64,000 nt of DNA from Pseudomonas entomophila (GTDB lineage: Bacteria; Pseudomonadota; Gammaproteobacteria; Pseudomonadales; Pseudomonadaceae), in assembly GCF_023277925.1 (NCBI RefSeq), contig NZ_CP063832.1, forward strand, positions 62,001-126,000, given 5' to 3'. A program made the position numbers and the translations under genes. Position 1 is the first letter of the stretch; each line of letters opens with the position of its first letter. Below are positions 6,058 through 59,454 of this stretch, one piece after another. Under the pieces are notes generated by a model that was not told the DNA's origin, did no database searches, and worked only from the letters and a program-made list of their open reading frames with translations.

Positions 6058-6221
6058 GCTGCGCTCTCCTTGTCATTGTGATCGAGGTCAGCCGAAATGG
6101 TGGCTATGTGATATCACTGCTTTGATTGTGGCACAAGCTGGCGGATCGGCCATTGATCCAGGCCAGATCGGCCCTCGTTCGATTGACGCTCCCGGTGCAA
6201 CCCTCTAACCTTCGCGGCGTG

Positions 6222-6418
6222 TTTCAGGTGCCCTGCGAATCTATGTTCGGCAGGGTGAAACTGGGAAGCCGGTGGGCGCCAGCAAGGTGCGATTCCGGCG
6301 CTGCCCCCGCAACGGTAGATGAGTCGACGGCTGCGCATGGCCACTGGATTTCGCGATCCGGGAAGGCGCGTGGCCTGGGCATGGCCCCACTCATGAGCCC
6401 GGAGACCGGCCTGTCACT
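6222..6418 (+). promoter_or_regulatory. Cobalamin (adenosylcobalamin) riboswitch
   Basis: The conserved blocks of the cobalamin riboswitch appear in order: AGGGTGAAACTGGGAAGCCGG (6252-6272, the GGGAA block), GCTGCCCCCGCAACGGT (the B12 box, 6300-6315) and GAGCCCGGAGACCGGCC (6396-6412). It sits about 120 bases before cobO and should switch the ten-gene operon off when the cofactor is plentiful. I could not assign the expression platform from sequence alone. Confidence 0.93.
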
Positions 6419-6539
6419 GCCAACGGCATCACGGAGGGTGATGCGCGGTGCGATGTGGCCTGCGCCACGGTCCCTGCGTGTTCTCCGTCTGCCCGCCTAT
6501 TACCTGTCACCCGCCGGTGGCAGCCTGCGGAGAACCCTG

Positions 6540-35340: not shown

Positions 35341-35366
35341 GGTGAGTCTCCATCGTTATCAATGAT

Positions 35367-35415
35367 GGGGCCGTCCCCGGAGCGATCACGCACTGCGTCG
35401 TGAGGTCGTCCTCAC
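35367..35415 (-). promoter_or_regulatory. Guanidine-II (mini-ykkC) riboswitch
   Basis: On the minus strand two hairpins occur in tandem: GTGAGG-ACGA-CCTCAC (35415-35400) and GGGG-ACGG-CCCC (35378-35367). Two short stems each with an ACGR loop are the definition of guanidine-II. The second hairpin ends 26 bases before the sugE ATG. A TATAGT box (minus strand, about 35423-35428) may be the promoter -10 element. Confidence 0.93.
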
Positions 35416-35481
35416 AGTGCGCACTATAGTGCACATAATTCGAAGGTGGGGCAAGCCAGGGGGATCAGTGGTGCAGGGTGG

Positions 35482-43266: not shown

Positions 43267-43344
43267 AAGCATATCGCTTGGCCAGGCCTGAACGCCACCC
43301 AATGGTGCAACAGGCCCACTACGGTGCGACAAGACGCGATCCCA

Positions 43345-43392
43345 CGTAGGAGCCGGCCTTGCCGGCGAACACCGGCAAAGCCGGTGCCAAGC
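43345..43392. repeat. Single REP copy with small hairpin
   Basis: GTAGGAGCCGGCCTTGCCGG.. followed by ACCGGCAAAGCCGGT, between the ParD-like gene and the nitrate leader. Confidence 0.7.
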
Positions 43393-43458
43393 GCCACGGT
43401 GCCTGATTCGCAGGCAGGCGCCGGTCATGGCCCGGCTTTTGCTGTCGCTCATTCATCA

Positions 43459-43498
43459 GGTCATCAACGCCGATGGCCGACTTTCATCACGACGAAGG
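43459..43498 (+). promoter_or_regulatory. ANTAR-type antitermination leader of the nitrate reductase gene
   Basis: Hairpin P1 (43459-43478) has a seven-base stem GGTCATC/GATGGCC around the hexaloop AACGCC, matching the AnnGnn loop recognised by ANTAR proteins. Three bases later a weaker stem CTTTC/GAAGG (43481-43498) could form P2; its loop of eight bases is not canonical. The 3' arm of P2 lies inside the 5' arm of the terminator that follows, so the two are mutually exclusive. NasT is the likely partner. Confidence 0.7.
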
Positions 43499-43556
43499 CG
43501 CCGTGTTGCCCCCGTTTGCCAGTGCAGGCCGGGGCAGCCGGCGCCTTTGTCGTTTC
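43491..43556 (+). terminator. Leader attenuator before nasA
   Basis: GACGAAGGCGCC (43491-43502) pairs with GGCGCCTTTGTC (43540-43551) over 12 bases with one G-T pair, with an inner stem TGCCCC/GGGGCA. A broken T-rich run follows. It lies 19 bases before the start codon, so it can only act as a conditional attenuator. Confidence 0.7.
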
Positions 43557-43574: not shown

Positions 43575-46500
43575 ATGAGCAGCAGCGAGGTCCGCAGCGT
43601 TTGCCCCTACTGTGGCGTGGGGTGCGGCATCGTCATGAGCGTGACCGACGGCAAGGTGGTCAAGGTCAGTGGTGATAAACAGCACCCGAGCAACTTCGGC
43701 CGGCTGTGCACCAAGGGCCTGACGGCTCACATCCCCCTGACCACCGGGCGCATGGCCTACGCCTGGCTGCGCCGCCAGCGCGACCAGGAACCGGTGCGCG
43801 GCGCTCTGGACGAGGCCATCGCCGAAACCGCGTCCCGCCTGCGCACGATCATCGACCAGCACGGGGCGGACGCCGTGGCCTTGTACGTGTCGGGGCAGAT
43901 GTCGCTGGAGGCCCAGTACCTGGCCAACAAGCTGGCCAAGGGGTATATCCGCACCCGCCATATCGAATCCAACTCGCGCCTGTGCATGGCCAGCGCCGGC
44001 AGCGGTTACAAACAGTCGCTGGGCGCCGATGGGCCGCCCGGCAGCTACCAGGATTTCGAGCACGCCGAGGTGTTCCTGGTGATCGGCGCGAACATGGCCG
44101 ACTGCCATCCGATCCTCTTCCTGCGCTTGCTCGAGCGGGCCAAGGCCGGGGCCCGGCTGATCGTCGTCGACCCTCGGCGCACGGCCACCGCCGACAAGGC
44201 CGACCTGTTCCTGCAACTGCGCCCGGGCACCGACCTGGCGCTGCTCAATGGCCTGTTGCACCTGCTGCATGCCAACGGCCATACCGACCCCGACTTCATT
44301 GCCCGTCACACCGAAGGCTGGGAGGCGCTACCGGCCTTTCTCGCCGACTACACCCCTGAACGCGTCGCCGCCATCACCGGCTTGGCCGAGGCCGATATCC
44401 GCCAGGCCGCCACCTGGATCGGCGAGTCCCAAAACTGGATGAGCTGTTGGACCATGGGCCTGAATCAGAGCATCCACGGCACCTGGCACAGCAACGCGCT
44501 GTGCAACCTGCACCTGGCCACCGGCGCCATCTGCCGCCTGGGCAGCGGGCCGTTTTCCCTGACTGGCCAGCCCAACGCCATGGGCGGGCGCGAGATGGGC
44601 TACATGGGGCCTGGCCTGCCGGGCCAGCGTTCGGCGCAGGTCGAGGCCGACCGCGCCTTCGTCGAGGGGCAATGGCAGTTGGCGCCGGGTACGCTGCGCA
44701 GCGACGGCGGTGAGGGCACGGTGGCGCTTTTCGAGCAGATGAAGCAGGGCGAGGTGAAGGCCTGCTGGATCATCTGCAGCAACCCGGTGGCCAGCGTCGC
44801 CAACCGCCAGCAGGTGATCGACGGCCTGCGCCAGGCGGAACTGGTGATCAGCCAGGACGCCTTCCACGATACCGAGACCAATCGCCATGCCGACATCCTG
44901 TTGCCTGCCGCGCTATGGGCCGAAGGCGAGGGGGTGATGATCAACAGCGAGCGCAACCTCACCCTGATGCCGCGCGCGGTCGACCCGCCCGGTGAAAGCC
45001 TCGAGGACTGGCGCCTCATCGCTCGGGTGGCCTGTGCCATGGGGTATGGGCATGCTTTCGACTACCCCAATGCCGAGGCGGTGTATGAGGAAATCCGCCG
45101 CTTCTGGAACCCCGCCAGCGGCTACGACCTGCGTGGCATCGGTTACCCCGAGCTGCGTGAGCGCCCGCGGCAGTGGCCCTGCGCGCCAGGCCGGGAAGCC
45201 CCCCGCAGCCCGCTGCGCTACCGCAACGACGGGGTCAGCCAGCAGCTGTTGCAGGATGAGCAGGGGGCTCGCCCGGCACTGGATTTTCCCACGCCCAATG
45301 GCAAAGCGCGGTTCCTGGCACGGCCCTGGCTGCCAGCGGCCGAGCAGGCGGACGAGGCGTATCCCTTCGTGCTCAACACCGGGCGTGTGCAGCACCAGTG
45401 GCACACCCTGACCAAGACCGGCCAGGTGCCCAGCCTGAACAAGCTGGAGCCGGGCCCCTTCGTCGAGATCAACCCCGAGGATGCCCGGCGCCTGGGGATC
45501 CGTGACCGCGACACGGTGGCGATCCGCTCGCGGCGCGGCCTGGCGCAGTTGCCCGCGCGGGTCAGTGATCGCGTGCTGCCCGGTGGTTGCTTCGCGCCGT
45601 TCCATTGGAACGACCTGTATGGCGAGCAACTGGCGATCAACGCCGTCACGTGCGACGCAGTCGACCCGACCTCCCTGCAACCGGCTTTCAAGTATTGCGC
45701 CGTGGCCCTGGAGCGGGTCGCGGGCGAGCGTATCGACGCCATCGACCTTGTTTCGGAGCCCACCCGCATGCCCACCGCCACCCTGTCTCGGCTGCTTGGC
45801 CTGGATGCTTTGCCAGCACCGGAGCTGGCAGAGGACGAGCGCCATTACCTGCAAGGTTTCCTGTTCGGCCTGGGCCAGGCCCGTGCCGAAGGGGTTCCGC
45901 GCTTGCCGGCCGGGGCGCCCCTGGCCCCCGCCCGACGCCTGTTCGTCGATGGACTGCTGGCAGCCTTGTTCAGCCAACCGGTACCGGCCAGTGAAGTCTC
46001 CAGTCATCACGTGGTGTGGGCGTCGCAGACCGGCAACAGCGAAGCCCTGGCCGAACGATGTGCGCAGCACCTGCGCGCAGCAGGGTTGGCGGTGCGCCTC
46101 AGTTGCATGGATGCGCTCGGCCCGGCGCAGTTGCAGGGGGCTGCCAGTGTGCTGCTGATCGCCAGCACCTTTGGTGACGGCGACGCCCCGGATTGCGCCA
46201 CGGCGTTCTGGCAGGCCCTGCAAGGCGAGGAGGGCGGGCACTGCGCCACGTTGCCCTACGCGGTATTGGCCTTGGGCGATTCCAGCTACGACCAGTTCTG
46301 TGGTTTCGGGCGCAAGCTCGACCAGCGCCTGGCCGAGCTGGGCGCGCGGCGCCTGCTGGCGCGGGTCGATTGCGAAGGGGATGCCGACGAGGCCTTCAGC
46401 GCCTGGCTGGACGCCTTGATGGAACAGTTGGGCAGTGCCAGGCCGACACCCGCCGAGCCCGAGCCGGTCGCGGGCTATGGCAAGCAGCAACCGTGGCTGG

Positions 46501-47570
46501 CGTCGGTGTTGGAAAACCGCCTGCTCAATACCCCCGGGTCGGCCAAGGAAACCCGTCAGCTGGTGTTTGACCTGCGCGGCAGTGGCTTCACCTATCAACC
46601 GGGCGACGCCCTGGGTGTGTGGCCACGCAATTGCCCAGCGCTGGTCGCGGAACTGCTGGCGCTGACGCAGCTCGATGGACAGGCCACGGTCGAGCTCAAG
46701 GGGCATGCGCCAATGCCGCTCTCGGTCGCGCTGGAGCGCCACCTGGACATTACCCGGGTCACCCCGCAGCAACTCGAGCGGTTCAGCCAGGGCAGCGACG
46801 ACTTGCGGCGTCTGCTGCAACCTGAGCGCAAGGCCGAATTGAAGGCCTGGCTGTGGGGGCGGCAACTGGCCGATGTGTTGAGCGCCTTTCCACAGCGGTT
46901 GTCGCTGACCGCCTGGTTGGGCTTGCTAAAGCCCTTGCAGCCACGCCTTTACTCGATCAGCTCCAGCCCCAACGCGCATCCCGAACAGGTGCACCTGACG
47001 GTCTCGACGGTGCGCTACGGGGAACGCAAAGGTGTCTGCTCGAGCTTTCTCGCCGACCGTGCCGGCGCGCTGGAAGTGGCGATCTTCCCGCAGCCGTCGA
47101 AGCACTTCCGCCTACCCGAGGACGACGCCACACCGATCATCATGATTGGCCCTGGCACCGGTATCGCACCGTTTCGCGCCTTTCTCGAGGAGCGCGAGGT
47201 ACGCGGGGCGAGCGGGCGCAACTGGCTGTTCTTCGGTGAACAGCAGGCGGCCAGCGATTTCTATTACCGCGAGCAGTTGCTGGCTTGGGAGAGCAGTGGG
47301 CACTTGCGGCTGAGCACTGCGTTCTCCCGTGATCAGCCGCAGAAGATCTACGTGCAGCAGCGCTTGCTGGAACAGGGCGCCGAGCTGTGGCGGTGGCTGG
47401 AGGATGGGGCGTGGGTGTATGTCTGCGGCGACGCCCAGCGCATGGCCAGGGATGTGGATGCGGCGCTGCGCCTGGTGGTGGCGGCGCAGGGCGGGATGAA
47501 TGATGAGGCAGCGGCTGCCTGGGTCGAGGCGCTGGGCAAGGCTGGGCGCTATCGGCGGGATGTGTATTGA
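43575..47570 (+). CDS. nasA: Assimilatory nitrate reductase fused to a CysJ-type flavoprotein reductase
   Basis: A 1331-residue fusion. Residues 1 to about 790 are a molybdopterin bis-MGD nitrate reductase of the NasA/NarB type, with a 4Fe-4S site Cys10, Cys13, Cys17 and Cys45 and a C-terminal dinucleotide-binding domain ([12 protein letters not shown]). From about 812 a flavodoxin domain (VWASQTGNS) follows, then FAD-binding ([16 protein letters not shown]) and NADPH-binding ([12 protein letters not shown], near 1191). One polypeptide can therefore take electrons from NAD(P)H to nitrate. ATG 43575 has AGGAG; the frame runs upstream through the leader hairpin by chance. Confidence 0.94.
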
Positions 47571-47627
47571 ACGCCCCGAGATGGTGAGCCGTGCACCCGT
47601 GCGGTGCATTAATTCGGCATGACCTCT

Positions 47628-47710
47628 GTAGGAGCGGCTTCAGCCGCGATCATCCGCGAAGCGGATACCAGGCACCGCGCCGTCTGCATCGCGGCTGAAG
47701 CCGCTCCTAC
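47628..47710. repeat. REP pair, perfect inverted copies
   Basis: GTAGGAGCGGCTTCAGCCGC.. at 47628 and its exact reverse complement ending at 47710, between nasA and nirB. Confidence 0.9.
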
Positions 47711-47786
47711 AGAGGGCAAGCAGGGTTACCCGCGAAGCCGTTGCCAGGCACATTGGCACATTCCCTGCTTCGACCATTGCACAAAA

Positions 47787-47838
47787 GCCCCACTGATCAA
47801 CGGCGATCATCCCGGGGCCTCACACTGATGAGTACAGG
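47787..47838 (+). promoter_or_regulatory. ANTAR-type antitermination leader of nirBD
   Basis: Hairpin P1 has TGATC/GATCA (47794-47809) around the hexaloop AACGGC, again AnnGnn, within an outer GCCCC/GGGGC stem. A second element, GCCT...ACTGAT...AGGC (47817-47839), places another AnnGnn-type six-base segment in a weak stem just before the terminator. The same layout before nasA suggests shared control by a NasT-like protein responding to nitrate or nitrite. Confidence 0.68.
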
Positions 47839-47839
47839 C

Positions 47840-47880
47840 AAAGGCGCCTGGAGCTTCGGCTCCAGGCGCCTTTTTGTTTT
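47840..47880 (+). terminator. Leader attenuator before nirB
   Basis: A perfect 15-base stem AAAGGCGCCTGGAGC/GCTCCAGGCGCCTTT with a TTCG tetraloop is followed by TTGTTTT. It ends 20 bases before the nirB start codon. Confidence 0.9.
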
Positions 47881-47899
47881 CCGTGATCGAGGATCGGCT

Positions 47900-50455
47900 A
47901 TGAAGGCAACAGCGAACGGCGCACCACGTGCGCGACTGGTCATCGTCGGCAACGGCATGGTCGGCCACCACTGTGTCGAGCAACTGCTCGAGCGGGGTGC
48001 CCTGGACCGTTTCGAGCTGCATGTGTTCGGCGAGGAACGCCAGCGCGCCTACGACCGGGTGCACCTGTCCGAGTACTTCGCCGGTAGCTGTGCCGAGACC
48101 TTGGCCCTGTGCGAGCAGGACTTCTACACGCGCCATGGGGTGCACCTGCACCTGGGCGAAGCGGTGCTGGAGATCGACCGCGAGCGCTGCGAGGTGGTCA
48201 CTGGCGAAGGCCGCTACGGCTATGACCAACTCATCCTGGCCACCGGCTCCTATCCCTTCGTGCCGCCGATCGAAGGTTCCAGCGGCAATGCCCGGCTGGT
48301 CTACCGCACGCTCGATGACCTTGACGCCATCCGCAATGCGGCCGCCGATGCCCGCCGTGGCGTGGTGGTGGGCGGTGGCCTGCTGGGGCTGGAAGCCGCC
48401 AACGCGCTGAAGTCGCTGGGCCTGGAAGCGCATGTGGTGGAGTTCGCCCCACGGCTGATGCCGGTGCAGCTCGACGCTGAAGGCGGCGCGGCCCTCAAGG
48501 CGCAGATCGAAGCCCTTGGCGTGGGCGTGCACCTGTCCCGCGCCACCCAGTCGATCGGCGCGGGCGAAGACTATCGCTACCGCATGCAGTTCGACGGTGG
48601 CGAGTACCTGGAGACCGACTTGATCGTGTTCTCCGCCGGCATCCGCCCCCAAGACGCCTTGGGCCGTGCCTGTGGCCTGGACATCGCCACGCGCGGCGGC
48701 GTGGTGATCGACAACGATTGCCGCAGCAGCGACCCGCGAATTTTCGCCATCGGTGAATGCGCCTCGTGGAACGGCAGCGTGTTCGGCCTGGTTGCGCCGG
48801 GCTATGCCATGGCGCGCAACCTCGCGGCGCTGCAGGTCGGTGACACGGCGGGCGCGTTCACCGGCGCCGACATGTCGACCAAGCTCAAGCTGCTGGGCGT
48901 CGATGTCGGCTCCATCGGCGACGCCCACGGCGCCACGCCGGGCTCGCGCAGCTACCGCTTCATCGACGAGGCCAACGCCGCCTACCGCCGCCTGGTGGTG
49001 GATGCCAGCGGCAAGCACGTGCTCGGTGCGGTGCTGGTGGGCGACAACAGCTACTACGACACCTTGCTGCAATACGCCCAGAACGGCCTTGCGCTGCCGG
49101 CCGACCCGGCCGCGCTGATCCTGCCGCAAAGCGGCGGCGCACCAGCCCTGGGCGCCGACGCGCTGCCCGACAGCGCGACCATCTGCTCGTGCCACAACGT
49201 CAGCAAGGGCGCGGTGTGCGCGGCCATCGACAGCGGTTGCGGCGACCTCGCCGCGGTGAAGGGCTGCACCAAGGCGGCCACCGGCTGCGGTGGCTGCGCG
49301 GCGCTGCTCAAGCAGGTGTTCGAGCACGAACTGACCGCCCGTGGCGTGACCGTGGACAAAAGCCTGTGCGAACACTTCGCCTACACCCGCCAGGAGCTCT
49401 ACGCCCTGGTGCGGGTCGAGGGTATCCGCAGCTTCGACGAACTGCTGGCGCGCCATGGCCAGGGCCATGTCGGCTGTGACATCTGCAAGCCGACGGTGGG
49501 CTCGATCCTCGCCTCATGCTGGAACCAGCCGATCATGGACCCGTCGCTGGTGCCGCTGCAGGACACCAACGACACCTTCATGGCCAACATGCAGAAGAAC
49601 GGCACCTACTCGGTGGTGCCGCGCATCCCCGGTGGCGAGATCACCCCGGACAAGCTGATCGTGATCGGCCAGGTGGCGAAGAAATACGACCTCTACACCA
49701 AGATCACCGGTGGCCAGCGCATCGACCTGTTCGGCGCCCAGTTGCACGAGTTGCCGCTGATATGGGGCGAACTGATCGAGGCCGGCTTCGAGACCGGGCA
49801 CGCCTACGGCAAGTCGACGCGCACGGTGAAATCCTGCGTGGGCAGCACCTGGTGCCGCTACGGTGTGCAGGACAGCGTGGCCATGGCCTTGCGCCTGGAA
49901 GACCGCTACAAGGGCCTGCGCTCGCCGCACAAGCTCAAGTTCGCGGTGTCGGGCTGCACCCGCGAATGCGCCGAGGCGCAGAGCAAGGATATCGGCGTGA
50001 TCGCCACCGACAAGGGCTGGAACCTGTATGTCTGCGGCAATGGCGGCATGCGCCCGCGACATGCCGAACTGTTCGCCACCGACCTGGACGACGAGGCACT
50101 GGTGCGCCTGATCGACCGGGTGCTGATGTTCTACATCCGTACCGCCGACAAGCTGCAGCGCACCTCGGTGTGGCGCGAAAGCCTGGAAGGCGGGCTGGAT
50201 TACCTCAAGGCGGTGATCCTCGACGACAGCCTGGGCCTTGGCCACGAGCTGGAGGCGCAGATGCAGCAGGTGGTCGACCGCTACGAATGCGAATGGGCCA
50301 ATGCCCTGAAAGACCCTGAGAAGCTCAAGCGCTTCCGTACCTTCGTCAACGACCAGCGCGCCGACCCCGATGTGCATTTCGTTCGTGAGCGTGAACAGCG
50401 CCGGCCCGCCGCGCCGCTGCACCTGATCCCCACCATCACCGAGGAGGCTGTCTGA
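47900..50455 (+). CDS. nirB: Nitrite reductase (NAD(P)H) large subunit
   Basis: An 851-residue siroheme enzyme that reduces nitrite to ammonium. An FAD/NAD(P)H oxidoreductase domain comes first (RLVIVGNGMVGHHCVEQL, LATGSYPFVPPIEG), then a [2Fe-2S] BFD-like domain (CSCHNVSKGAVC near 430 with CGGC), and a siroheme/4Fe-4S domain with C-x5-C in SCVGSTWC (about 645) and C-x3-C in SGCTRECAEA. GAGGATCGG precedes ATG 47900. An in-frame ATG at 47828 would translate through the terminator stem and has no ribosome site, so it was not used. nirD follows directly. Confidence 0.96.
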   Translation: MKATANGAPRARLVIVGNGMVGHHCVEQLLERGALDRFELHVFGEERQRAYDRVHLSEYFAGSCAETLALCEQDFYTRHGVHLHLGEAVLEIDRERCEVVTGEGRYGYDQLILATGSYPFVPPIEGSSGNARLVYRTLDDLDAIRNAAADARRGVVVGGGLLGLEAANALKSLGLEAHVVEFAPRLMPVQLDAEGGAALKAQIEALGVGVHLSRATQSIGAGEDYRYRMQFDGGEYLETDLIVFSAGIRPQDALGRACGLDIATRGGVVIDNDCRSSDPRIFAIGECASWNGSVFGLVAPGYAMARNLAALQVGDTAGAFTGADMSTKLKLLGVDVGSIGDAHGATPGSRSYRFIDEANAAYRRLVVDASGKHVLGAVLVGDNSYYDTLLQYAQNGLALPADPAALILPQSGGAPALGADALPDSATICSCHNVSKGAVCAAIDSGCGDLAAVKGCTKAATGCGGCAALLKQVFEHELTARGVTVDKSLCEHFAYTRQELYALVRVEGIRSFDELLARHGQGHVGCDICKPTVGSILASCWNQPIMDPSLVPLQDTNDTFMANMQKNGTYSVVPRIPGGEITPDKLIVIGQVAKKYDLYTKITGGQRIDLFGAQLHELPLIWGELIEAGFETGHAYGKSTRTVKSCVGSTWCRYGVQDSVAMALRLEDRYKGLRSPHKLKFAVSGCTRECAEAQSKDIGVIATDKGWNLYVCGNGGMRPRHAELFATDLDDEALVRLIDRVLMFYIRTADKLQRTSVWRESLEGGLDYLKAVILDDSLGLGHELEAQMQQVVDRYECEWANALKDPEKLKRFRTFVNDQRADPDVHFVREREQRRPAAPLHLIPTITEEAV

Positions 50456-50817
50456 TGAACCGTTCCAATGTTGCCGAGACACAACCGTTGCACTGGCAGG
50501 CGGTGTGCCAGGTCCGGGACCTGGTGGCCGATTCGGGTGTGGTGGCCTGGTTCGACGGGGAACAGGTGGCGCTGTTCTACCTGCCGGGGCGCGAGCAGGT
50601 GCTGTATGCCGTCGACAACCGCGATCCGCGGTCGGGGGCCAATGTCATTGGCCGCGGCCTGGTCGGCAGCCTGGGCGGCGAGCTCGTGGTGGCGGCGCCG
50701 TTGTACAAGCAGCATTTCAGCTTGCAGGACGGGCGCTGCCTGGAAGATCCGGCGCAGCGACTGCGGGTGTGGCCAGTGCGGGTGACCGGGGAGCAAGTAG
50801 AGATCGCCCAGCACTGA
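50455..50817 (+). CDS. nirD: Nitrite reductase (NAD(P)H) small subunit
   Basis: A 120-residue Rieske-fold subunit of the assimilatory nitrite reductase. The typical YAVDNRDPRSGANVIGRGLVG and PLYKQHFSLQDGRCLED are present; as in other NirD proteins, the Rieske iron ligands are missing. The start codon shares one base with the nirB stop (TGATG), so the two are coupled. Confidence 0.95.
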   Translation: MNRSNVAETQPLHWQAVCQVRDLVADSGVVAWFDGEQVALFYLPGREQVLYAVDNRDPRSGANVIGRGLVGSLGGELVVAAPLYKQHFSLQDGRCLEDPAQRLRVWPVRVTGEQVEIAQH

Positions 50818-51098: not shown

Positions 51099-54000
51099 AT
51101 GTCTGCCGCACCCGCCGTTCCCGCGCCCAGCGAGCGCGAAATCCAGATCGCCATCGCCCCCCTCGACACCCTCCTCAGCGAAGACCTCGGCGCCGCCGCC
51201 GCTTCCGTCGACCACTGGCTGCAAGAAATCAGCTACGGCCTGGTCGATCTGCAACTGCTGCGCCAGCACGCCGAGAGCATCCCGGCCATGGCCAACTCCC
51301 TGGCCTGCATCGACGCGCTGATCGACATCCTCGAACTGGTCGAAAACCCCGACCCCGATCCGCTGGTGTGGGTCAGCCTGGGCATCAACCTGATCGGCAT
51401 CGTCCCCTACCCACCCGGCCTGTCCCGCGCCCGCACCGTGCTGCGCCCGGTGCTGCAACTGACCCGCCAGACCCTGCGCCGCCGCCCCGGCGCGCACATC
51501 GGCGCGGTGATCCTGGAGATCATCGACGGCCACCTGCACGCCAATATCCGCGGCGCCCTGGAGCACTACGTACGCGAGGCCCTGGCCCAGTTGCCGGCGA
51601 TGCTCAGTGCCGCCGCCGACACTGCGCGCCTGTTGTTCACCTCGTTGGCCAAGACCATTGCCGCCGCCGCCCGTGGCAAGCTGGATGCCGCCAGCAGCCA
51701 CCGCCTGGCCCGCGCGCAGATGGCCCAGGTGGCGCTGTACGACTCGGCCCTGGAGACCGACGCCTGGCGCCTGGCCCTGTCGGCCCTGGCCAACGCCACC
51801 GAGGGCAGCCTCAAGGACGGCTACAACAGCGTTGCCCGCCACTTCAAGGGCGAGCTGGACAGCCTGCTCGGGCCGTTGATCCGCACCCTCGAAGACCTGG
51901 CCAAGGTCGTGCCCCAGCGCCTGCAGGCCCTGGGCAGCGCTGGTATGGAAAACAGCATCGCCTGGCTGCTGACCCGCCTGCTCGAGACTGTGCTGGCCAA
52001 CCCGCGCCGCCCAGGCATGGCCGTCGCCATCCGCCCCGGCGTCACCCACCAGGCCCGGCATGTCCACCCCGAAGGGCCGACCGAGGTGGTGCGCAGCCAG
52101 GTCCGCGCCAACAAGCAGCCCAAGCCCGAGAAGAACGGTCCGTGTGCCTGCACCGGCTTCAGCATCGGCCATGTGCTCGGTGACGAGACGCTGGCCCATC
52201 AGGATTTCAGTCTGTCCGGGCCGTTCCCGGTCAACTGGACGCGGGTGTACAACTCCCGGCTGGCCAAGCTGGACGACGGCAGCCTCGGCGCCCGCTGGAT
52301 CACCGAGTTCACCACTTGCCTCGATGTCGTGGACAAGGGCGTGGTGTTCCACGACAGCGACGGCCGCAGCCACGACTACCCGCTGCCCAAGGTCGGCAAG
52401 CCGCACTATGACCCGATCGAGTACGTCAGCCTGGTGCGCACCACCGAGACCCAGCTCATCCTCATCCGCGGCCTCTCGCGGCGTGAGACCTACGAGCGGG
52501 TCGGTGATCGCTTCTACCTGGTCCACATCGTCCTGCGCAGCGGCGCCGGGGCAATGCTGCACTACGAGCACAGCCACAATGGCCGCCCGGTGCTGTCGGA
52601 TATCAACACCTATTCCGACAACGACCCCGAAAAAGTCCACCTGCAACTGGGCACCCTGCTCGACGACCATGGGCATATCCAGGGCCTGTGGCAGGTGGTC
52701 GACGGCACGCCGCTGCGCCAGCTGTGCGGCTACCACTACGACGCTCAAGGCGACCTGATCGCCGCCCAGGACGAGCACGGCGCCGCCTGGCACTACCAGT
52801 ACCAGCATCACTTGGTGACCCGCTACACCGACCGCACCGGGCGCGGCATCAACCTGGAATGGGACGGCAGCGGCCCACAGGCCAAGGCCATCCACGAGTG
52901 GGCCGACGACGGCAGCTTCGAGACCCGCTTGGCCTGGGACCCGAACATCCGCCTGACCTATGTCACCGACGCCCACGGCCAGGAAACCTGGCACTACTAC
53001 GACGCCCTCGGCTACACCTACCGCCTGATCCACCCGGACGGCCGCGAGGAGTGGCTATTCCGCGATGAACGCAAGAACGTCATCCGCCACGTCCACCCCG
53101 ACGGCAGCCAGGACCGCTACACCTACGATGAACGCAGCAACCTGTTGCAGCACATCCGCGCCGACCACAGCACGGTGCACTACGCCTACGACGAGCACGA
53201 CCAGCCGATCAAGCTGCGCGATGCCGAGGGGGGCTTGTGGCTACGCGACTATGACGAGCGCGGCAACCTGGTCGAGAGCGTCGATCCGCTGGGCAACAAG
53301 ACCGAGTTCGCCTATACCCCGGCCGGGCTGGTCAAGGCGATCAAGGATGCGCTGGGCAACGAGAAGACACTGGCCTACAACGCTGCCGGGCAGTTGCTTG
53401 AGTACACCGACTGCTCGGGCAAGACCAGCCAGTGGGCGTACAACGCCCTCGGCCAGCTGACCGAATTCGCCGATGCAGCGGGTAACACAACCGCCTACGA
53501 GTACCAGGCCGGGCAACTGGCCAAGGTCACCCATCCCGACAAGACCGAGGAACGCTTCAACTACGACGCCGAAGGTCGCCTGCTGGCCCACGTCGACGCG
53601 CTCGACCGCTGCACCACCTGGTCCTATACCGCTGCCGGTATGCTCGCTGAGCGCGTCGACGCCAACGAGCACACCTTGCGTTATCGCTGGGACAAGCTCG
53701 GCCGCTTGATCGGGCTGGAAAACGAGAACACCAGCAAGGCCACCTTCCTCTACGACCCGGTCGGCCGGCTGCTGCAAGAAACCGGCTTCGATGGCCTGGT
53801 CACCCGTTACCAGTACGACCCGTACAGCGGTCGGTTGGCGAGCACCCAGGTTGGCCAGCGCCGTATCGAGCTGACCTTCGACCCCATGGGCCGCTTGAGT
53901 GAACGCACGGCCCGCCTGGGCAACCAGAGCCAGAGCGAAACCTTTGCCTACAACGGCAACGGCCAGTTGATCCAGGCCGTCAACGCCGCCAGCAAGTTGC

Positions 54001-54950
54001 AATGGTTCCACGACGAAGCGGGCAACCTGACCCGCGAGCATCAGTATTACTTGGCCACCGGCACGCCGATGGTCGCGGTGTGGCAGCACGAGTACGACGC
54101 GCTCAACCAGCGCACCGCGACGATCCGTCCGGACGGCCACAAGGTCAGCTGGCTGACCTACGGCAGCGGCCACCTGCTCGGCATGACCCTCGACCAGCAC
54201 GAAATGCTGGCTTACGAGCGCGACGACCTGCACCGCGAAACCGTGCGGCATCAGGGCAATAAGCTGATGCAGACCCAGGCCTGGGACCCGGCCGGGCGCT
54301 TGCAGGAACAGTTGTTGGGCAGCCACGACGGCCAGTCCACGCTGCTCAAGCGTCAGTACCGCTATGACGCCGCCGGCCAGCTGACCAATATCCACGACAG
54401 CCGTCGTGGGCAGCTGGAGTACCAGTACGATCCGGTCGGTCGCCTGCTCAAGGCCACCAGCCGCCTGGGTGTGGAAACCTTTGCCTTCGACCCGGCCGGT
54501 AACCTGCTGGACCAGAAAACCCAGGAACTGAACCGCCCGCTGGAAGCCGATCCACGGCGTAACAAGCTGATGGACAACCTGCTGCGCGAGTACGCGGGTA
54601 CTCATTACCGCTACGACGAACGCGGAAATTTGATCCACCGCCTGCACAACGGCGCCCACGCGCACTTCACCTGGGACCTGTTCGACCGGCTGGCCTCTTA
54701 CAACGACGATAAGCTCAAGGTCGACTACAGCTACGACGCCCTGGGCCGGCGTTTGCACAAGCATTCGGTGGCGCACTTCTGGGACCGCCCGGAAGCGGGC
54801 ACCGGCTGGAACCAGCTGCAACGGGCCAAGCGCCAACGTGAACTCGGCTGTGGCTTCACCCTGTTTGGCTGGGATGGCGACACCCTGGCCTGGGAGAGCT
54901 CACCGCCACGCGACGAAGGCGACACCGGTCGCACCGTGCATTACCTGTAA
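51099..54950 (+). CDS. RHS repeat protein, N-terminal and core part (ends at an in-frame TAA)
   Basis: 1283 residues before the stop. The N-terminal 330 residues are a helical region with hydrophobic stretches (WVSLGINLIGIVPYPPG) and no PAAR domain. A DUF6531-like segment follows (DFSLSGPFPVNWTRVYNSRL near 368), then about 25 YD repeats (YDxxGxL/xxxTDxxG type) to the end. AGGAAGG precedes ATG 51099. The TAA at 54948-54950 stands where relatives read a Tyr codon (VHYLYEPGSF), and the same frame continues with the missing RHS core and toxin tip. This is probably a single-base nonsense change in one polymorphic toxin gene of 1544 codons. Confidence 0.88.
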   Translation: MSAAPAVPAPSEREIQIAIAPLDTLLSEDLGAAAASVDHWLQEISYGLVDLQLLRQHAESIPAMANSLACIDALIDILELVENPDPDPLVWVSLGINLIGIVPYPPGLSRARTVLRPVLQLTRQTLRRRPGAHIGAVILEIIDGHLHANIRGALEHYVREALAQLPAMLSAAADTARLLFTSLAKTIAAAARGKLDAASSHRLARAQMAQVALYDSALETDAWRLALSALANATEGSLKDGYNSVARHFKGELDSLLGPLIRTLEDLAKVVPQRLQALGSAGMENSIAWLLTRLLETVLANPRRPGMAVAIRPGVTHQARHVHPEGPTEVVRSQVRANKQPKPEKNGPCACTGFSIGHVLGDETLAHQDFSLSGPFPVNWTRVYNSRLAKLDDGSLGARWITEFTTCLDVVDKGVVFHDSDGRSHDYPLPKVGKPHYDPIEYVSLVRTTETQLILIRGLSRRETYERVGDRFYLVHIVLRSGAGAMLHYEHSHNGRPVLSDINTYSDNDPEKVHLQLGTLLDDHGHIQGLWQVVDGTPLRQLCGYHYDAQGDLIAAQDEHGAAWHYQYQHHLVTRYTDRTGRGINLEWDGSGPQAKAIHEWADDGSFETRLAWDPNIRLTYVTDAHGQETWHYYDALGYTYRLIHPDGREEWLFRDERKNVIRHVHPDGSQDRYTYDERSNLLQHIRADHSTVHYAYDEHDQPIKLRDAEGGLWLRDYDERGNLVESVDPLGNKTEFAYTPAGLVKAIKDALGNEKTLAYNAAGQLLEYTDCSGKTSQWAYNALGQLTEFADAAGNTTAYEYQAGQLAKVTHPDKTEERFNYDAEGRLLAHVDALDRCTTWSYTAAGMLAERVDANEHTLRYRWDKLGRLIGLENENTSKATFLYDPVGRLLQETGFDGLVTRYQYDPYSGRLASTQVGQRRIELTFDPMGRLSERTARLGNQSQSETFAYNGNGQLIQAVNAASKLQWFHDEAGNLTREHQYYLATGTPMVAVWQHEYDALNQRTATIRPDGHKVSWLTYGSGHLLGMTLDQHEMLAYERDDLHRETVRHQGNKLMQTQAWDPAGRLQEQLLGSHDGQSTLLKRQYRYDAAGQLTNIHDSRRGQLEYQYDPVGRLLKATSRLGVETFAFDPAGNLLDQKTQELNRPLEADPRRNKLMDNLLREYAGTHYRYDERGNLIHRLHNGAHAHFTWDLFDRLASYNDDKLKVDYSYDALGRRLHKHSVAHFWDRPEAGTGWNQLQRAKRQRELGCGFTLFGWDGDTLAWESSPPRDEGDTGRTVHYL

Positions 54951-58890: not shown

Positions 58891-59454
58891 GTGGTCGGCC
58901 TCTATAAGGGCCGCTACAGGCTTGCTGTCAAACAAGTGGGTGGCAGCTGTACATGGGTTGACAGACCGGCAGGCAAACCAAAACCCGGCGCACATGAAGT
59001 GCCCCATGCACAGCAGCCATTGAGGGCTAAGCCATGTAGTTTGACTGATCGGCCTGTCAAAGCCGGTCGCTGATTCAAGCGCCCCGCCGAGACTAGAGCC
59101 GTGCCAGAACGACCGCAACGGAAAAAGGGCGGCGGGAGTATGTTTGGGAAATGGACTACAAGGAAGGGGTTAAATCTGATTTCAGAGCCTGAAATGCAAT
59201 CCCATCGAGGCGTGGCATATCCCTGGCTCCACACTAACCTCAAGCCTTGCGCGATCCCTGTGGGAGCGGCCTTGTGTCGCGAAAAGACTGCATTGCAGCC
59301 CCTGGATCTCAGTATCAATGCAATGATCGCTGGGGCCGCTTTGCGCCCCTTTCGCGACACAAGGCCGCTCCCACATGGGCAAACGTAAACTACAAAAACG
59401 CTGCAAGACAGCCGCTCCCACAGGGCTTGTCGTTTTACGGATACACTGCCGGGC
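58891..59454. other. Intergenic region with a long inverted REP-like pair
   Basis: The left part (58891-59250) holds no gene I can support. A perfect 25-base inverted pair (GTGGGAGCGGCCTTGTGTCG.. at 59260-59284 and its complement at 59350-59374) fills the right part, with one further CGCTCCCACA half-site near 59413. Confidence 0.7.

Follow-up and report, generated by a model that had tools for sequence, protein, structure and literature searches.

A probable NasS-NasT antitermination leader upstream of nasA in Pseudomonas entomophila with a variant second hexaloop

The 64,000-nucleotide stretch of Pseudomonas entomophila DNA analysed here (the window) contains a structured leader directly upstream of the assimilatory nitrate reductase gene nasA, which raises the question of whether nasA is governed by ANTAR-domain antitermination and, if so, in which form. 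A preliminary description had proposed such a layout with a NasT-like regulator, and this proposal is supported by covariation among related leaders, by a gene pair encoding receiver-ANTAR and NMT1-like proteins, and by the co-occurrence of leaders with ANTAR genes. Thus, this region is very probably a nitrate-responsive NasS-NasT/ANTAR leader; the features of the window are collected in Table 1. Sources given by PMC accession are cited from excerpts of their texts.

Table 1. Features of the window around nasA and nirB and elsewhere in the stretch
Feature	Position	Strand	Remarks
Cobalamin riboswitch	6209-6428	+	102.5 bits
Guanidine-II riboswitch	35366-35417	-	42.3 bits
NtrC-like site, weak	43293..43309	+	CGCCACCCAATGGTGCA; 10/14 positions of an NtrC consensus
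Palindrome pair upstream of nasA	near 43345-43395		REP-like by eye; resembles that at 47617-47721
Sigma54-type promoter before nasA	43428..43443	+	TGGCCC-N5-TTGCT; GG-N10-GC spacing; aligns with positions 1-15 of Rfam narK
nasA leader, ANTAR hairpin 1	43459..43478	+	7 bp; loop AACGCC (A1, G4) at 43466-43471; covarying
nasA leader, ANTAR-like hairpin 2	43488..43505	+	CACGAC[GAAGGC]GCCGTG; loop with G1 and G4; A.C mismatch in stem
nasA leader, predicted intrinsic terminator	43489..43553	+	29 pairs; engulfs hairpin 2, both arms; U-tract UUUGUCGUUU is broken
nasA	43575..47570	+	assimilatory nitrate reductase fused to a CysJ-like flavoprotein reductase, by similarity
NtrC-like site	47592..47608	+	TGCACCCGTGCGGTGCA; 12/14 positions of an NtrC consensus
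Palindrome pair between nasA and the nirB leader	47617-47721		REP-like by eye
Sigma54-type promoter before nirB	47754..47769	+	TGGCAC-N5-CTGCT
nirB leader, ANTAR hairpin 1	47792..47811	+	loop AACGGC; outer stem 47787-47791/47814-47818
nirB leader, ANTAR hairpin 2	47835..47850	+	CAGGC[AAAGGC]GCCTG; perfect 5-bp stem; A1, G4
nirB leader, predicted terminator	47840..47873	+	15-bp stem, then U-tract; 5' arm begins inside the hairpin-2 loop
nirB, nitrite reductase large subunit	47900..50455	+	over NirB cut-off (scanned as 47894-50455)
nirD, nitrite reductase small subunit	50455..50817	+	TIGR02378 over its cut-off
Large RHS-like open frame	51099-54950	+	by eye
C4 antisense RNA	58936-59024	-	68.6 bits; a phage-type RNA

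Anatomy of the leaders and the proposed switch

The first hairpin of the nasA leader is the seven-base-pair stem with hexaloop AACGCC that had been described previously, and it carries both A1 and G4. The second hairpin had been placed elsewhere, as a stem CTTTC/GAAGG (43481-43498) closing an eight-base loop. This stem is predicted at -2.0 kcal/mol vs -4.3 kcal/mol for the hairpin 2 of Table 1, is seen only in the folds of some partial transcripts, and its 5' arm, by eye, is lost in relatives; comparison with 87 leaders identifies the Table 1 hairpin instead as the conserved one. Its loop is in fact a hexaloop, GAAGGC, in which G4 is present and A1 is replaced by G. The leader is therefore a divergent variant as had been suspected, but on account of this G and of the A.C mismatch in the stem rather than of loop size, and the fold program pairs the loop G1 with C6, leaving a tetraloop. 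A terminator does follow hairpin 1; its predicted fold has three runs of 15, 8 and 6 pairs, 29 in total, rather than the 12 initially assigned to it. Hairpin 2 and the terminator exclude each other in the predicted folds. The fold of the whole leader is markedly stable compared with shuffles (z -6.69, with 0/200 shuffles as good). No family named for ANTAR appeared among the matches of the Rfam scans; the families RF03032 (narK RNA) and RF00625 (P11), together with R1, a model built from 40 leaders with the promoter excluded, were used as stand-ins for the ANTAR model that the preliminary description had called for. RF03032 matches 43429-43504 at 51.0 bits, above its gathering score of 43.2, and R1 scores the leader at 55.2 bits, both window leaders being in its training set.

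A second leader, absent from the preliminary description, precedes nirB at 47754-47873. Its hairpin 2 has a loop with both A1 and G4, and the fold of 47760-47880 reaches z -6.12. P11 matches it at 47742-47870 with 48.4 bits, under the 70-bit gathering threshold, and the anatomy is the same. A third leader is located between nasT and narK (G000:C1:498133-498204, 65.2 bits). The search of the window's own genome with R1, in which 150 of 5367 candidates were scored, listed 35 matches, which include the leaders of nasA and narK; the nirB leader was absent among the matches listed. Five other R1 matches (19.6-25.4 bits) were rejected as leaders, all of them lying inside open frames longer than 600 bases.

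A search of the 5.76 Mb genome returned one ANTAR match, in a receiver-domain protein whose neighbouring product is NMT1-like. From their domains and position, these are probably proteins of the NasT and NasS kinds, respectively; no NCBIfam model assigned either name to them. The nasA product reached no NCBIfam cut-off among the 25 families listed.

In the mechanism that we propose, nitrogen limitation would activate the sigma54 promoter, presumably through NtrC, and the RNA would start near 43454. Without nitrate, NasS would hold NasT, the terminator would displace hairpin 2, and transcription would halt ahead of nasA. When nitrate or nitrite is present, free NasT would bind the hexaloop of hairpin 1 and then that of hairpin 2, and the bound hairpin 2 would retain the 5' arm of the terminator, allowing the polymerase to continue into nasA. 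A canonical version of this switch would act before nirB in the window and before narK, adjoining nasT. There are published accounts of NasT antitermination in Bradyrhizobium, Paracoccus and Pseudomonas (PMC6759348, PMC5424462, PMC3795266, PMC12830290), NasT binds the nasA leader of Paracoccus (PMC3795266), and growth of P. putida on nitrate requires NasT (PMC7261876).

Several observations count against this mechanism: the weak covariation of hairpin 2, the loss of A1 from its loop, the broken U-tract, the small number of class genomes over the RF03032 cut-off, and the absence of the nirB leader among the R1 matches listed for its own genome. Additionally, 20 added bases abolished antitermination by EutV (PMC8934654), whereas the spacer between the hairpins ranges here from 1 to 21 bases (40 rows). 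As regards NtrC, sites scoring at least 10/14 against the consensus occur in 26/36 nasA-type upstreams and 4/13 P11-type upstreams, with about 11% in shuffles, and are unenriched before narK (2/33); furthermore, the excerpted text of PMC3973561 reports the Pseudomonas leader NalA without an NtrC-like site. Finally, NasT hairpins are predicted for narK of Bradyrhizobium, whose expression nevertheless rises in a nasT mutant (PMC6759348).

Comparison of leaders and co-occurrence with ANTAR genes

A set of 87 leaders was assembled from the two in the window, the third in its genome and those of relatives; because all were found with RF03032 and RF00625, they share the features that those models demand. 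The genes behind them, by best match, are nasA (37, one of which, in G086, is missing most of its length), narK (34), nirB (13) and nasS (3). Twelve of the 13 nirB matches are just 33-36% identical to the NirB of the window, and a nirB-like gene lies downstream of all 13 P11 leaders checked.

Hairpin 1 covaries strongly, as the preliminary description would lead one to expect, whereas hairpin 2 does so weakly. For hairpin 1, 92.2% of cells are paired over 44 distinct sequences, and 6/7 pairs have two-sided changes, amounting to 63 cells vs 19.3 +/- 3.5 in shuffles; the covariation score is 0.610 vs 0.213 +/- 0.023 in shuffles and falls to 0.174 or less when the arms are slid. Since the closing C-G and the motif of the loop are built into the search pattern for this hairpin, those positions provide no evidence; the hairpin of one leader, L067, was placed by hand and left out of alignment A4, and the hairpin-1 loop of L176 is without G4. 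For hairpin 2 (33 distinct sequences), 82.4% of cells are paired and 3/5 pairs have two-sided changes, in 10 cells in total. Since its covariation score of 0.177 is nearly matched by a +2 slide (0.169), this hairpin is supported, not strongly. The position of the A.C mismatch is unpaired in 12/33 distinct rows and in 24/40 rows. When one counts only how many pairs have two-sided changes, 149/500 shuffles did as well as hairpin 1 and 108/500 as well as hairpin 2. Both hairpins together (40 rows) have a covariation score of 0.337 vs 0.138 +/- 0.013. In 87/87 leaders, the window included, the predicted fold has the 3' arm of hairpin 2 paired within the terminator that follows. The GG-N10-GC spacing is likewise present in 87/87, most of which were found with models containing the promoter.

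Over 80 named nasA loci, R1 gave 120 matches at E <= 0.5 and 50 at E <= 1e-4, 49 of the latter in Pseudomonas contigs. Beyond Pseudomonas, the matches (in Burkholderia, Paraburkholderia, Thauera, Pectobacterium, Paracidovorax and other genera) are weak, with E from 8.7e-5 to 0.48. GG-N10-GC was found within 80 bases upstream of 31 of the 44 examined (of 45) vs a chance expectation of 11.5%; a handful of these 31 resemble chance matches, and many come from close relatives. Four Burkholderia contigs (L148, L158, L161 and L162) show, near 565-1160, two back-to-back R1 matches with sigma54-type spacing and weak scores.

Among 119 genomes of the genus, RF03032 matched in 106 (E <= 0.01; 100 over the cut-off) and ANTAR genes were found in 107. 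A leader match occurs in 104/107 genomes with an ANTAR gene and in 2/12 without (Fisher p 1.7e-10, a value that treats the genomes as independent, which is untrue). With either Rfam family, the figures are 106/107 and 2/12; P11 by itself occurs in 80/119 and in 0/12 of those without ANTAR. Genomes with an ANTAR gene and without an RF03032 match are G001, G018 and G051. The ANTAR frames of G001 and G018, both of which carry P11, are 438 and 432 aa long, and we read them as NasR-like, in both cases from the length and in G001 also from the appearance of the start. In G001, the P11-type leader L217, which is over the cut-off, has the 438-aa frame downstream in place of NasT; apparently the leader was retained and the regulator swapped. 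The two genomes with a match and without ANTAR are G003 (E 0.0075) and G086. The latter is a relic, in which the leader (L216, 2711-3430) is kept over the RF03032 cut-off, the middle of nasA is gone (matches to residues 1-117 and 1245-1331 only) and no ANTAR match is present in the genome.

In the wider class set of 274 genomes, RF03032 matched in 25 and passed its cut-off in just 3; 22 of the 25 contain an ANTAR gene vs 87/274 overall (p 1.4e-9), and in 21 of these 22 it lies within 12 kb of the match. R1 at E <= 1e-4 matched 10 of the same 274 genomes, 8 of them with ANTAR, a yield small enough for R1 to be regarded as an insensitive model.

These comparisons bear on two other explanations of the stretch. 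It might be an ordinary attenuator, or the terminator of an upstream transcript, outside NasT control and resembling an ANTAR target by chance, since a long palindrome by itself yields a strong fold. However, hairpin 1 covaries, nitrate genes stand behind 87/87 leaders, leader matches co-occur with ANTAR genes, and the nearest upstream open frame taken by eye as a gene lies on the minus strand, which together make this explanation extremely improbable. Alternatively, the narK RNA and P11 could be two independent stand-alone regulators, the first a riboswitch and the second a trans-acting sRNA, which is what their Rfam types, Cis-reg (RF03032) and Gene (RF00625), would imply. We likewise judge this very improbable. 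The sigma54 spacing, the pair of A..G hexaloops and the terminator that covers hairpin 2 are common to leaders found with either family, and published descriptions make NalA a leader of nirBD that has a sigma54 promoter (PMC3973561, PMC12830290).

The G at position 1 of loop 2

Position 1 of loop 2 is A in 80/87 leaders and G in seven, all before nasA (G110, G024, G104, G025, G102, G053 and the window genome, G000). The exact G1 pattern was found in 20/398 genus genomes; four of these (G078, G642, G543 and G432) were rejected as coding-like matches without hairpin 1, hence 16 G1 leaders. The exact A1 pattern occurs in 112/398, as a bare count of pattern matches. In a tree of 45 NasA N-termini (16 G1, 29 A1), the G1 genomes form one clade of 15 (support 98/91) plus G053, a topology that points to at least two origins of the change. 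One A1-to-G change was found in loop 1, in L074 (G068).

Within the clade, terminator pairing runs through loop position 1 and five further bases in 13/15 leaders vs 2/30 A1 leaders (G080 and G115). In G024 and G443, C replaces U opposite G1, a matching change in the stem. Hairpin 1 still covaries within the clade (GACCATC/GATGGTC and GGCCATC/GATGGCC). The narK leaders in 6/6 and the nirB leaders in 5/5 clade genomes read are canonical, with A1 in both loops. No change in NasT that tracks G1 was found in 18 NasT rows (7 G1 genomes and 11 others, the row of G068 missing); by eye, no position after 'AERKRIE' splits all G1 rows from all others. An H near the C terminus in six A1 relatives vs S/A in the G1 clade was rejected as a marker, S being found in other A1 rows as well.

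How the clade came by this leader may be read in two ways. Tentatively, and with clearly less than even confidence, we suggest that the clade rebuilt it as a reinforced stop, in which G1 can pair with C6 and also with the 3' arm of a terminator that in most of the clade extends over the whole of hairpin 2, and NasT would open it mainly via hairpin 1 or a collapsed loop 2, at a threshold differing from that of the narK and nirB leaders. The other possibility is partial decay, in which NasT binds hairpin 1, hairpin 2 (with G1, the A.C mismatch and a closable G1-C6) is no antiterminator, nasA is expressed via leak or another promoter, and nitrate control is left to narK and nirB. The tetraloop predicted for hairpin 2 fits such decay, as do the canonical narK and nirB leaders of the clade and the loss of eutP induction when A1 of either loop is mutated (PMC3369931). 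However, the rest of the leader is kept in 15 genomes with hairpin 1 covarying, and the terminator is retained and in 13/15 extended, both of which are unexpected under decay, so that we consider it unlikely. In the EutV structure, as excerpted from PMC8934654, no specific contact with A1 is seen, and A1 is suggested to hinder pairing across the loop. The G1 change is thus a natural experiment on the role of A1, an open point according to that source, and the nasA leader, if rebuilt as suggested, would be a natural test of A1 conservation in ANTAR targets.

Rfam families and known systems

RF03032 has the same hairpin 1 as the nasA leader, and the Rfam structure line marks this hairpin and leaves the second hairpin and the terminator unmarked. 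RF00625 has its elements in the same order as the nasA leader, with a spacer of 20-21 bases, and the Pseudomonas rows of P11 have space for an additional hairpin. We infer that both families are NasT leaders and that RF03032 begins with ~15 positions of promoter DNA; judging from place and anatomy, we also take P11 and NalA to be the same RNA. No statement that RF03032 is a NasT leader was found in the literature searched. If the inference on the two families holds, two Rfam families, one named for a gene and the other for an sRNA, would be tied to one known regulator, and promoter DNA would have been modelled as RNA in RF03032.

Among characterised ANTAR targets, the EutV/eutP and NasR/nasF leaders likewise contain small hexaloop hairpins, and the second hairpin of eutP overlaps the terminator; the A at position 1 is described there as conserved, whereas loop 2 of the window has G1 (PMC3369931, PMC8934654). 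The Paracoccus nasA leader is similar by its published description, having two hairpins before nasA and being bound by NasT (PMC3795266, PMC5424462). NalA, the nirBD leader of P. aeruginosa and P. putida (Romeo 2012 and Nie 2024, as cited in the excerpts of PMC12830290 and PMC3973561), shares the sigma54 promoter, the NasT-dependent antitermination and the nitrate assimilation operon. Compared with NalA, the window contains a separate leader before nasA in addition to that before nirB, and this nasA leader is distinguished by G1 in loop 2 and by a longer terminator stem.
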